DNA of 64,000 nucleotides from Arthrobacter hankyongi (GTDB lineage Bacteria > Actinomycetota > Actinomycetes > Actinomycetales > Micrococcaceae): NCBI RefSeq assembly GCF_022012395.1, contig NZ_JAKLTQ010000011.1, positions 1 through 64,000 of the forward strand, given 5' to 3'. A program made the position numbers and the translations under genes. The notes beneath the pieces were generated by a model, which was given only the letters and a program-made list of their open reading frames with translations, was not told the DNA's origin and searched no databases. Positions within the stretch are counted from its first letter, which is position 1. Each line of letters begins with the position of its first letter. Shown piece after piece: positions 8,286 through 63,623 of this stretch.

Positions 8286-8420
8286 GGGGTGCACAACGTG
8301 CGCACTTTCGCCTCCGTACCGGGCCGTACGTCGGCCGGACCGGGCCGGATCCGGCTGGTTTGCGCGGGTGCCCTTTGTTTACATGGACGGGAAGCCTGTT
8401 CGAGTCCCATCTCGGGCACA
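8286..8420 (+). repeat. Repeat copy A with tRNA-3'-end core (candidate attachment site)
   Basis: The unit begins with GTGCACAACGTG, passes through GTACCGGGCCGTAC and CCGGGCCGGATCCGG, and ends with a core at 8398-8420 (GTTCGAGTCCCATC then TCGGGCACA). The core reads like the T-loop and 3' acceptor strand of a Leu-type actinobacterial tRNA with discriminator A; no 5' half exists. It lies 68 bp upstream of the integrase start, the normal position of an attachment site used by tRNA-targeting integrases. Homologous units are at 10.2, 61.1 and 63.5 kb. Confidence 0.65.
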
Positions 8421-8488
8421 GTAAACACAAGGGAAAACGGGGCACTCGTGTACAAGGTTGGAAAATCGGTGTACACGGGCGCTAATGT

Positions 8489-9607
8489 TTGGCCTCATGG
8501 CAAGCATTGGGGAGCGAAAAACGTAAAGACGGTTCGGTCGATTACTGGGTGCGGTGGCGTGAAGCCGAGACCGGCACGTACACCTCCTACACCGCCTACG
8601 ATCGCGAACAGGCCGAGTTCGTCTGCCGAATCCTGAATGCCAACGGCCAATCTTTCTCCGCCCTGAACCGTGTCCTGGAAGAACAGGCGGCGGTCGGGCC
8701 CACCGTGCACCAGGTCCTGACCGAGCACATTGACCTGCTGGTGAAGCCGACCCCGCAGACGATCCACAATTACCGGAAGATGGTTGAACTCCATCTGGTC
8801 GACCTGCATGCGCTGCCGTTGACGTCGCTGGACTCCCGGCATATCAGCTTGTGGATCCGCGATATGCAGGCCCAGGGCAAGAGCGCCAAGACCATGCGCA
8901 ACGTCCACGGACTGCTCTCATCGGCCATGGAAACCGCAGTGCGATTCCACTACCGGGATGACAATCCCTGCCGGGCCATAGAGCTGCCCTCGAATGAGTC
9001 TGCGGGCGACGATCGGGTCTTTCTCACTACCGAGGAGTACAGGCTGCTCCGGGACTGCCTGCCCGATCGGGCACAGCCTTTAGCTGACTTCCTCGTCTAC
9101 ACCGGGGCACGGTTCGGGGAAGCCACCGCCGTCACCGTGAGGGACCTGTTCCTGGACGACGCGCCGGCGCCCGTGCGGATCAACAAGTCATGGAAGCGTG
9201 ACGGGTCTTCCGGGCACTACGTGGGGGCGCCGAAGACCACCACGTCCAAGCGCACAGTGTCGATGCCGTCCCGGCTGGTCGACGTGGTCCACCCCGTCGT
9301 GGCGGGCAGTAGGCCTGGCGATCTGGTGTTTGAGGCAGTGCGTGGTGGTAGGCTCGCCCACACTCTCTTCTGGCGCAACGCATGGGTTCCCGCGGTCAAG
9401 GACGCCCAGCGCCTGGGACTGGACAAGGACCCCACCATCCATTCGCTGAGGCACACCTCGGCCAGCTGGTTGATCGCTTTGGGCGTCCCGTTGTTTGAGC
9501 TGTCTCGCAGACTTGGGCACGCATCCATCGGCGGCACGGACCGCGTCTACGGGCATCTCATGCCCGGCGCCCACAAGCAGGCTGCACGCGTCCTCGACAG
9601 CCTCTAG
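8489..9607 (+). CDS. int: Tyrosine recombinase / phage-type integrase
   Basis: A 372-aa integrase that cuts and rejoins DNA at attachment sites. An N-terminal arm-binding part is followed by a SAM-like core-binding domain (about 70-155) and a catalytic domain with Arg in YTGARFGEA (about 208), HSLRH (about 318-322), LGH (about 344) and the nucleophile Tyr in DRVYGHL (about 354). All catalytic residues are intact. The only in-frame start close by is a TTG at 8489, six bases after an in-frame TAA; the nearby ATGs are in other frames, so expression may be weak or use a start I cannot see. The tRNA-like repeat directly upstream suggests it integrated at a tRNA 3' end. Confidence 0.9.
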   Translation: MASWQALGSEKRKDGSVDYWVRWREAETGTYTSYTAYDREQAEFVCRILNANGQSFSALNRVLEEQAAVGPTVHQVLTEHIDLLVKPTPQTIHNYRKMVELHLVDLHALPLTSLDSRHISLWIRDMQAQGKSAKTMRNVHGLLSSAMETAVRFHYRDDNPCRAIELPSNESAGDDRVFLTTEEYRLLRDCLPDRAQPLADFLVYTGARFGEATAVTVRDLFLDDAPAPVRINKSWKRDGSSGHYVGAPKTTTSKRTVSMPSRLVDVVHPVVAGSRPGDLVFEAVRGGRLAHTLFWRNAWVPAVKDAQRLGLDKDPTIHSLRHTSASWLIALGVPLFELSRRLGHASIGGTDRVYGHLMPGAHKQAARVLDSL

Positions 9608-9690
9608 TCCAGTTCGTCGTATGGATCCTGCCAGGACGATTCGTCGCGGGTGATGCGCTTGACCCATGCGGCGGGCACCCACTGGGCCTG
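9604..9690 (-). pseudogene. Possible C-terminal remnant of an unknown gene
   Basis: Minus-strand codons ending PYDELD and a TAG that overlaps the integrase stop have natural-looking composition, and are closed by a stop upstream at 9691-9693. There is no ATG. It may be the tail of a gene broken by integration or simply noise. Confidence 0.2.
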
Positions 9691-9712
9691 CTAATCACCG
9701 AACGATAGACCC

Positions 9713-9738
9713 ATACAGAAAAGGCCCCCTTTCTGTAT
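9713..9738 (+). terminator. Hairpin terminator after the integrase
   Basis: A perfect 9-bp stem (ATACAGAAA at 9713-9721 with TTTCTGTAT at 9730-9738) and an eight-base loop follow the integrase stop by about 105 bp. The A- and T-rich arms make it usable in both directions. Confidence 0.6.
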
Positions 9739-61665: not shown

Positions 61666-61928
61666 GGTCGAGCGGCAGCAGCAATATGGGCAGTGACGCC
61701 GCCTTGGTCTCGGCTATGTCCACTAGTCCGATGCATTGACCTCTTCGCTTTCGCCAGCCCGAAGGACAGCATTCCATACGTCCGACCACGGTGTGGCACC
61801 CGGGATACTGTCGTCGCAGTCGATTTGCCGGACACGCCGTAGTGCCGCAGCGGGTCCGGCCGGCCGCGGACGTAGCATGGGAGATCCTGCGCCGCGGGGA
61901 CGCAGGTTTGGGGAAAGCAGGCGGCATT

Positions 61929-62672
61929 ATGCGCGGTCGCACCGCCATCCGGTTTGTCCTGTCCGTCCTGTCCGCGGCCGCACTGGCCCTGGGCCTGCTG
62001 GTCCCGGCCGGGCCGGCCTCGGCTGCCGTGGCCTACAACGTGTACCGCGGTCCGAACCTCAGCCGGCGCGTCATGCTCACCTATGATGACTGTCCGCGGA
62101 CGCTGGGCGCCTTCAAGAGCGTTGTCGGTTACGCGAAAAAGAAGAACATCGGTCTGGTCATCGCGCCGACCGGCAACTGCATCCGCCGGTTCCTGGACCG
62201 CACCGGCGTTAACATCGCCCAGTACGCCCGCGACCGCGGCCAGTATGTGATCAACCACAGCATCACGCACCCGGACCTGCGCAAGCTCAGCTGCGCCGCC
62301 GTCGCCCGCGAAATCTCGCGGGCCCCCGGAGCGGGAAGCAACTACGGCCGCCCGCCCTACGGCGCGGTGAACGCCAAGGTCCGCTGCGGTTATGCCCGCG
62401 CCGGGATGAAGATCTGGCTCTGGGGCACCGATACCCGGGACTGGACCGGCAAGAGCCGCGCGCAGGTGGTGGCCGCTGCGGCCGGTGCCGGCTCCGGCGG
62501 GACCGTCCTGATGCACATGGCCTGGAACGGCTTCAGCCCGGCCGCCATCGGGCAGATCAGGGCCCGGCTCGCCGACCGCGGCCTGAAACCGTGCCGGGCC
62601 TACCGGGGCATGGACAACCGGGGCCGGATCATTCCCACTACCAAGAAGCTGCCCTCACGCCTGCCCTGCTGA
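61929..62672 (+). CDS. Secreted polysaccharide deacetylase (NodB-homology family)
   Basis: A 247-aa protein with a signal peptide (FVLSVLSAAALALGLLVP, likely cut after ASA). The deacetylase motifs are TYDDCP (the catalytic and metal Asp), the metal-binding NHSITHPD (H-x3-H-P), RPPYGA and WGTDTRDW. It probably trims acetyl groups from peptidoglycan or another wall glycan outside the cell. The frame is open back to 61791, but the ATG at 61929 gives the signal peptide. It lies between repeat copies C and D. Confidence 0.87.
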   Translation: MRGRTAIRFVLSVLSAAALALGLLVPAGPASAAVAYNVYRGPNLSRRVMLTYDDCPRTLGAFKSVVGYAKKKNIGLVIAPTGNCIRRFLDRTGVNIAQYARDRGQYVINHSITHPDLRKLSCAAVAREISRAPGAGSNYGRPPYGAVNAKVRCGYARAGMKIWLWGTDTRDWTGKSRAQVVAAAAGAGSGGTVLMHMAWNGFSPAAIGQIRARLADRGLKPCRAYRGMDNRGRIIPTTKKLPSRLPC

Positions 62673-62781
62673 ACTCCCTGCAGGCTGCAACTTCCGCCCC
62701 CCGGCGAAGCCGCGTGTGTGGCAGACCCCCGGACCCGTCTCGGACGCCACGGTCATGGACGATTCGAAGACCAGCCGCTAA

Positions 62782-63513
62782 CCGATCTGGCACGGGCAGG
62801 CCTCCTATGTTGTCGGGGACCGGATTGTCGAAATCTACGACATCCGCCACCCGCTCGAGCCCCGGCAGTCACCGCGGAACCTGCGCGTCTCCCCATTCCA
62901 CCGGCGCCAGACAGACCTGGGCGCCTTCTTCCTTGAAACCGCCGGGTGGGAGCGCCCGCACTGGTACGAGGCGAACGCGGGCCTGCTCAAGACCCTGCCG
63001 GAGGACTGGCAGCCGCCGGCCCGCGACGACTGGTCGGCGCAGTTCGACTCCCCGATCGCCGCCGCCGAGGCCCACGCCACCCGTACCAACGTGGCGATGT
63101 ACGACATGACCGCGCTGAAGCGGCTGGAGGTCTCCGGGCCCGGGGTGCTGCAGTTGCTGCAGCACCTGTCAACCGGCCAGCTGGACAAGACCGTCGGCTC
63201 GGTCACCTACACCCTGATGCTGGACGAGGCGGGCGGCATCAAGAGCGACCTAACCGTGGCCCGGATCGAGGACACACTCTTCCAGGTCGGCGCCAACGGC
63301 GGGCTGGACCTGGACTACATCGCCCGGCGGGCCGCCGCGCAGACCGAGACGGACCCGCTGCAGTGGGTCCAGGTCCGGGACACCACCGGCGGCACCTGCT
63401 GCATCGGGGTCTGGGGTCCGCGCGCCCGCGACATGGTCCAGCCGCTGACCCCGCAGGATCTGTCCAACGAGGGCCTGAAGTACTTCCGCGCCGCCAGCAC
63501 CACCATCGCCGTC
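62782..63513 (+). pseudogene. GcvT-domain (dimethylglycine/sarcosine-dehydrogenase-like) fragment, truncated at both ends
   Basis: In one frame from a TAA at 62779: [51 protein letters not shown], and the GcvT fold [20 protein letters not shown] through [19 protein letters not shown]. This is the middle of an 800-aa FAD plus aminomethyltransferase-type oxidoreductase acting on N-methyl amino acids. The FAD domain is missing, and the frame runs into repeat copy D just after [11 protein letters not shown]. It is therefore cut by the repeat and non-functional. Confidence 0.8.
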
Positions 63514-63623
63514 GTGCCGGGCCGGATGCGGCAGGTTACCGGGCGATCCCTTTATTTGCAGGGCGGGAAACCGGTTCGAGTCCCATCTCGGGCACAGAGT
63601 TTCCCCAAGTCAGAGGGGTTTCC
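63513..63623 (+). repeat. Repeat copy D with tRNA-3'-end core (candidate far attachment site)
   Basis: The segment from CGGCAGGTTACCGGGCGA through TTTATTTGCAGGGCGGGA, the core at 63574-63596 (GTTCGAGTCCCATC then TCGGGCACA), and GAGTTTCCCCAAGTCAGAGG matches copy B at about nine bases in ten over 95 bp. It lacks the long right-hand part of B and C. It interrupts a GcvT-like gene. Confidence 0.75.

Follow-up and report, generated by a model that had tools for sequence, protein, structure and literature searches.

Rows of modules joined at tRNA-Leu 3'-end cores in Arthrobacter hankyongi and other Micrococcaceae

The stretch of DNA analysed here, called the window, comprises the first 64,000 positions of contig C3 of Arthrobacter hankyongi (genome code G000; relatives are coded G001 and so forth) and holds a catabolic gene cluster, a tyrosine integrase gene, and four copies of a core sequence corresponding to the 3' end of a tRNA-Leu gene (Table 1). 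These components had been interpreted in a first-pass annotation as a single catabolic island of about 55 kb, bounded by the repeats and carrying the integrase at one end. The four same-orientation cores and the intact integrase were found as described there, but the single island was not: the window covers a section of a row comprising eight modules or more, in which the catabolic cluster is one module of 50.8 kb and the integrase forms a module of its own, 1.9 kb long, that stands in the middle of the row and not at its end.

Table 1. Features of the row; positions refer to contig C3, and hence to the window, unless contig C13 is named.
Feature	Position	Strand	Description
Cores on C3	8399, 10277, 61116, 63575, 73760	+ for the four in the window	Found by pattern search
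Cores on C13	C13: 42177, 50129, 77276, 79323	Same orientation as the C3 set	Found by pattern search
Module before the integrase, right part	1..8398		Presumed continuation from contig C13, given the probable contig order
Unit A	8286..8421	+	Left arm, degenerate dyad at about 8287-8305, core 8399-8419, then the integrase-side arm; lacks the usual right arm
Tyrosine integrase	8489..9607	+	372 amino acids; PF00589 (Phage_integrase), E 8.4e-14
Unit B	10165..10568	+	Decayed dyad in the left arm; core at 10277-10297; the long right arm opens with a terminator-like hairpin
Catabolic module	10298..61115		50.8 kb, without cognate integrase
Unit C	61004..61515	+	Dyad at 61008-61026; core at 61116-61136, differing from the pattern at two positions; right arm
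Polysaccharide deacetylase gene	61842..62672	+	In the 2.4-2.5-kb module between units C and D
Unit D	63513..63626	+	Left arm truncated, no dyad; core 63575-63595
Start of the next module	63596..64000		Runs past the end of the window as far as another unit at C3:73760

A search of the whole genome with the core pattern, allowing up to two mismatches, gave 10 matches, far above chance, against none for the reversed pattern used as a control. Nine of these, all in the same orientation on contigs C3 and C13, belong to the row and its tRNA, and the tenth lies within a tRNA-Leu(TAA) gene, so that the core is not the dispersed genomic repeat that would have spoken against an island. An intact tRNA-Leu(CAA) gene outside the window (C13:42115-42197) ends in the core at C13:42177; no tRNA gene was found within the 64-kb window itself. 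Each of the eight non-tRNA cores is embedded in a diverged repeat unit of about 130-500 bp, and the units of this genome are 77-93% alike in those pairs that were aligned. The close likeness of units B and D that had been pointed out holds, as they are the most alike pair in the window (93% identity over 115 bp), and the repeats enclosing the degradation cluster are real; the account built on them was incomplete, passing over copy C between them, the larger units around the cores, and five more cores elsewhere in the genome. The modules between successive pairs of units measure 7.9, 27.2, 2.1, 1.9, 50.8, 2.5, and 10.1 kb, with one more across the contig gap. The contigs probably follow one another in the order C13, C3, C16, and the row would extend over about 122 kb from the tRNA to the last unit, plus any gap, provided that C13 and C3 adjoin.

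All 10 genomes of the genus, G000 among them, possess this tRNA region. Genus-conserved genes start within about 0.1-11 kb after the tRNA in seven relatives (G001-G005, G008, and G009), and in G001-G004 the distance is only about 0.1-2.3 kb, which supports the reading of the repeats as tRNA-Leu 3' ends at an integrase site. In G000 they begin on contig C16, and several stretches of C3 match sequence up to about 36 kb downstream of the tRNA in G002, G006, G008, and G009. A simple arrangement is that of G007, where a 62%-identical integrase stands directly behind the tRNA and a second core follows 48.5 kb downstream; this 48.5-kb island (G007:C7:29585-78141, L080-L082) has a different left arm with another inverted repeat. 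In G006, mostly small genes, perhaps of a prophage, follow the tRNA and right arm (C90 below 49484, L071-L073), and this run has no match above 45% among the stretches compared.

The window integrase is the sole close copy in its genome, the next best match having 32% identity. Among 30 aligned integrase sequences, residues R208, H318/R321, H344, and Y354 are at least 95% conserved, and we take these to be the residues expected of a tyrosine recombinase. Matches at E<=1e-80 were obtained in 41 of 395 family genomes, including G000. Apart from the window's own there were 44 such matches, of which the best 29 were examined and 15 remained unchecked for a tRNA; in all 29, a core lies 98-138 bp upstream of the integrase together with an intact tRNA-Leu(CAA). 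The earlier reading of the repeats as tRNA-Leu 3' ends at a tyrosine-integrase site is thereby upheld, and the cognate integrase appears to be specific for tRNA-Leu. An integron integrase of the IntI type was considered and rejected, given a score of 29.1 bits with the TIGR02249 model (cut-off 265) and the location of the integrase family behind tRNA-Leu.

The distribution of the units was surveyed with a 641-bp unit query against the 395 family genomes (E<=1e-3, two candidates scored per genome), which matched 184 genomes in 23 of 32 genera, many of the weak matches representing the core or the tRNA only. All 14 relatives chosen from these matches, mostly single-contig assemblies, contain same-orientation rows, with 3-11 core matches per genome and no match to the control pattern; in 11 of them one of these core matches stands far off in variant sequence, likely another tRNA-Leu gene. 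Row spans range from 25 kb (G379) to 387 kb within a 4.7-Mb chromosome (G387), and 548 kb separate the outer cores in Arthrobacter sp. NtRootA1. A single intact tRNA-Leu(CAA) stands at the row start in each of the 11 fetched sequences that hold one, namely those of ten relatives (G387, G238, G346, G366, G350, G176, G380, G379, G207, and G139) and C13. A further search of 84,980 species genomes for an exact dyad followed, after a gap of 75-105 bp, by the core recovered 66 stretches, whose titles name Arthrobacter in 56 cases, Pseudarthrobacter in 8, Paenarthrobacter in 1, and a Micrococcaceae bacterium in 1. No paper on such rows in Arthrobacter or Pseudarthrobacter was found in searches of the open-licence papers of PubMed Central (PMC).

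From left to right, the attachment unit consists of a dyad, GC-rich arm repeats, the tRNA core, a terminator-like hairpin, and sometimes a second dyad. In the 66 stretches, the gap between dyad and core at 67 sites is 93 bp in 58, 92 bp in 6, 94 bp in 2, and 98 bp in 1. Because these stretches had been selected by their exact dyad, the dyad statistics were restricted to row units and unit-query loci, where the left dyad occurs in 43 of 48 internal row units (31 at -112 and 7 at -113) and in all 23 distinct loci retrieved with the unit query. The variable positions of the dyad fall into three classes, GC (16), GG (13), and TG (7), and the two halves match each other at these positions in 36 of 43 cases, compared with a mean of 14.4 and a maximum of 26 after shuffling (0 of 5000 shuffles reached the observed value); the halves thus covary. 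A second dyad-like site is found at +55 to +71 in 39 of 146 units, and eight perfect second dyads occur at +364 to +373. Of the 57 perfect dyads in the 1.81 Mb of row sequence, 45 mark units, eight occupy the second position, and four fall in units whose core is decayed or split. When six units were folded, one strand only, z values ranged from -0.5 to -3.4, and five units formed the dyad hairpin with otherwise no common fold, so that no consistent attC-like single-strand structure emerged from these six.

The first 40-75 bp of the right arm also follow the tRNA in G002, G005, and G009, as do about 285 bp in G006. The reading of the right arm as native chromosomal sequence only was set aside, as several right-arm types occur at junctions in other genera, and the arm is treated here as the putative other arm of the element, whose start would mimic the tRNA terminator. 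Two irregular arrangements deserve mention. At L274:2348-2890, two units lie about 300-345 bp apart with identical flanks, so that either the module between them is empty or the unit has been duplicated in tandem, and in the G387 row (170762-172555) a unit is split by an inserted transposase-like gene, named by eye.

The content of the rows was examined in 15 row sequences (1.81 Mb, 76 units, 61 intervals), three of which, G375, G216, and G390, are partial rows; unit calls were made at a 60-bit cut-off, so that decayed units were possibly missed, and the 61 intervals include one (G387, 170762-172372) that corresponds to the gap inside the split unit just described. The intervals measure 1.3-165 kb, with a median of 14.4 kb. 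Only four contain an intact cognate integrase and one a broken one, in the G350 row, and two distant recombinase-like matches were also noted; the remaining 56 show no trace of the cognate integrase, the search for other recombinases not having been systematic. In the G366 row, a 1.27-kb repeat of 99.6% identity, likely an insertion sequence, is present in two neighbouring modules (31826-33094 and 53136-54408).

Modules behave as discrete units in comparisons between rows. An integrase-less module of 8.2 kb is common to G346 and G375 (99.4% over 8382 bp), with different neighbours in the two rows; G375 shows the same places as G395 (Pseudarthrobacter sp. H3Y2-7), and both were taken as one genome. 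In ungapped comparison, the right arms at its left boundary are 100% identical and the left arms 65%, and at its right boundary the left arms are 100% identical and the right arms 24%, which places the breakpoints at both ends inside the 21-bp core. A second module, carrying a HigB/HigA-like pair, is mostly common to the two genomes as well (98.4%), in another order. Transfer of the 8.2-kb module between distant species was rejected in view of the 99.1% identity of the flanks beside the tRNA, and the comparison shows module turnover at the cores between close relatives. More widely, homologous module content sits at different positions in different rows, and in further pairs the module ends are alike up to the unit with no match beyond it, as in a module end common to Leaf69 and Bi26 (97.5% over 1.5 kb).

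Two families of toxin-antitoxin genes are located directly before some of the units and in the same orientation, one comprising a Fic/Doc toxin with a ribbon-helix-helix antitoxin and the other a Gp49-like toxin with a helix-turn-helix antitoxin; both were found via genes adjoining units, and their closeness to units is partly a selection effect. Matches to Doc in 11 sequences include seven of near-full length no more than 300 bp before a unit (strain SW1 has two of these), a fragment some 200 bp before a unit, two at distances of 8 and 32 kb, and one whose locus has no unit downstream. HigA-like matches were found in eight sequences (seven distinct places), each with one match 47-59 bp before a unit; one of these is partial, with a further fragment 2.8 kb away. 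A 1.3-kb module of G238 holds only a toxin-antitoxin pair between two well-preserved units.

Taken together, these rows probably, though by no means certainly, grew by accretion in tandem, a tyrosine integrase specific for tRNA-Leu acting in trans on modules of which most lack an integrase. Each module would be an integrative element and would have, in its circular form, a single attachment site composed of the dyad, arm repeats of about 93 bp, the core from the tRNA 3' end, the terminator-like hairpin, and often a second, weaker dyad. The integrase would join modules by recombination inside the 21-23-bp core, either at the tRNA or at existing junctions, and each joining would restore the tRNA 3' end and a terminator. 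For modules without an integrase, the enzyme may be supplied in trans, or the module may travel along with a neighbour; the source would be the row's single integrase or one that arrives transiently, and the toxin-antitoxin genes at some module ends would resist loss. The mid-row position of the integrase in G000 fits the insertion of later modules between the tRNA and the integrase.

Ordinary accretion followed by decay, in which complete elements lost their own integrase and cis-mobilizable remnants became stacked behind the tRNA, is a rather unlikely but serious alternative. It is a published model for tandem elements, according to the portion of the account cited here (PMC5704250), and it would accommodate the broken integrase of G350, the decayed units in several rows, the six fetched rows that have no cognate integrase, and the lack of an integrase match at E<=1e-80 in the genomes of several integrase-free rows. 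It is at odds with the 56 of 61 intervals that retain no trace of such an enzyme, and small modules with both units intact, such as that of G238, together with the tight geometry of the sites, would be odd for fossils. It is improbable that the row is shuffled chiefly through homologous recombination, whether among its units or following the uptake of relatives' DNA, with no integrase involved. Left arms are indeed more alike within rows than between them (0.80 versus 0.72, and 0.772 versus 0.734 within one genus, reached in 0 of 1000 shuffles), whereas right arms of that genus are not clearly so (117 of 1000 shuffles), and the breakpoints of the 8.2-kb module are confined to the 21-bp core, with the changed sides dropping to about 65% and 24%. 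As for the single 55-kb catabolic island bounded by B and D, the high similarity of that pair is what recommends it, but unit C lies between the two, the unit recurs past the window, the tRNA is elsewhere, and relatives have like rows; it has hardly any probability left and is refuted as a complete description, a deletion from B to D being one outcome that could still occur.

Several observations also weigh against accretion by an integrase acting in trans. What the sequences show are the sites and their geometry, the anchoring at the tRNA, the association with an integrase, the modules that lack one, and the confinement of one module's breakpoints to the core; we infer excision, circular forms, action in trans, the direction of growth, and stabilisation. 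No fragment of a cognate integrase was found in five rows with an intact tRNA (G346, G366, G176, G380, and G379), the G207 row, which also has its tRNA, contains only a distant integrase match, and these six genomes, like G350, are absent from the 41 matched at E<=1e-80; the acting enzyme is at present missing there, and one has to suppose that it was lost or comes as a visitor. A scan of viral contigs with the exact pattern, and a search of plasmids and phages with one 361-bp query from G000, yielded no unit, and no vehicle is therefore known. G346 and G375 are closely related, with 99.1% identity over 2.1 kb next to the tRNA, so that their shared module may have been inherited, with only its neighbours changed. 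In G000 itself, the assembly leaves contigs C13, C3, and C16 separate, without overlap between their ends, and the row may be largely fossil, since its units are diverged (about 77-93%) and partly decayed.

Accretion behind tRNA and transfer-messenger RNA (tmRNA) genes is already known, and the rows described here are a large, standardised, integron-like form of it. The nearest known case is that of the ssrA islands of Dehalococcoides, which are arranged in tandem downstream of one small-RNA gene and carry degradation cargo; as the cited part of the account describes them, they resemble the present rows in being bounded by 3'-end repeats and in including 15 islands without an integration module (PMC3146451). 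They differ in the use of tmRNA, in a serine recombinase within a six-gene module (16 islands), and in the confinement of repeats to 100 kb (PMC3146451, same part), whereas the present rows involve tRNA-Leu and a tyrosine integrase, of which no fetched row has more than one cognate copy, a dyad that covaries and precedes the core by about 93 bp, toxin-antitoxin genes at some of the module ends, and spans of up to 387 kb (548 kb in NtRootA1). Integrase-less elements that keep their attachment sites and are stacked at a gene end are likewise known from the accretion of integrative and conjugative, integrative and mobilizable, and cis-mobilizable elements, for which the cited section describes tandems with a decayed element (PMC5704250); here there are up to 11 cores per row, mostly without integrase traces. 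The trait of cis-mobilizable elements, attachment sites at both ends without a cognate integrase, is found in 56 of the 61 intervals.

The additive flexible genomic islands of Methylophilaceae contain varying numbers of repeats of the last 20 bp of tRNA-Lys, with a variable island of 330 bp to 42 kb, and the passages concerned describe, unlike the rows here, no larger conserved site or cognate integrase (PMC10872708). Tycheposons are similar in that they carry cargo, measure 4-200 kb, are anchored at tRNA genes, and have a tyrosine recombinase, and they are set apart by the fact that rows of many integrase-less modules with a standard site do not figure in the description given in the same source, so far as cited (PMC10872708). 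Sedentary chromosomal integrons, in the excerpted account, have one integrase, integrase-less modules with junction sites, and toxin-antitoxin cassettes (PMC11023631), all in common with the present rows. The intervals here, of 1.3-165 kb, are by contrast not single-gene cassettes, the site is attP/attR-like, and the anchor is a tRNA gene in place of attI; the toxin-antitoxin genes at some module ends are a resemblance only, being a common but not a defining integron trait. Finally, PAISt of Streptomyces is likewise actinobacterial and modular with one tyrosine recombinase, for which the cited portion reports experimental modular excision at one internal and two flanking repeats (PMC4057263). 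It differs in its 8-bp palindrome at the 3' end of bacA and its one internal repeat (PMC4057263, same portion). The points that are new are the standard covarying site, the scarcity of the cognate integrase, the toxin-antitoxin genes at some module ends, and the extent of the rows across the family.

A more far-reaching interpretation, put forward tentatively and with some doubt, is that Arthrobacter and its kin possess an integron-like stockpiling platform. In it, one tRNA-Leu integrase might act in trans to capture, shuffle, and excise non-autonomous modules of a kilobase to tens of kilobases, each with a standard double-stranded site in which a covarying dyad accompanies the tRNA-Leu core; toxin-antitoxin modules would hold the row together, and the dyad classes (GTGTGCAC, GTGTGGAC, and GTGTTGAC) would denote distinct specificities of an accessory or directionality protein. 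Arthrobacter-type soil bacteria are characterized by versatile catabolism, and the rows would be one of the main places in which catabolic clusters are gained, stored, and lost; they also provide a double-stranded-site counterpart to chromosomal integrons. The conserved site allows modules to be delimited in draft genomes with a simple pattern, and it makes the spread of large metabolic clusters without an integrase of their own a plain question for recombination assays.

Ten genes of the 50.8-kb catabolic module were scanned, and they encode an acyl-CoA dehydrogenase, a 3-hydroxyacyl-CoA dehydrogenase, a thiolase, an FMO-like monooxygenase, a CoA-ligase-like protein, a carboxyl transferase, a ferredoxin-type reductase, a P450, an amidase, and one conserved hypothetical protein. 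When 386 genomes were scored with one candidate each (4 not scored), the 19.9-39.8-kb part of the module gave long matches of about 81-85% in G348, G378, G189, G157, and G143 and of about 69-77% in G180, G058, and G099; in G378 the matching stretch shares its contig with two units, its orientation relative to them being the same. At its right end (window 57911-59683), the module resembles a segment just past the row (C3:78793-79794, 70-79%), as if a copy of the row flank had been carried along.

Two distant modules of the row, C13:42198-50129 and C3:63596-73760, have a common set of genes, by eye kinase-like, desaturase-like, and transporter-like, with one gene pair 94% identical, and the former has inverted TetR genes, 79% identical, at its two ends. 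Just past the row, an 11.4-kb cluster (C3:79922-91304), by eye similar to nonribosomal peptide synthetase genes, is 86% identical, in inverted orientation, to G008 sequence located about 24-36 kb past the tRNA.

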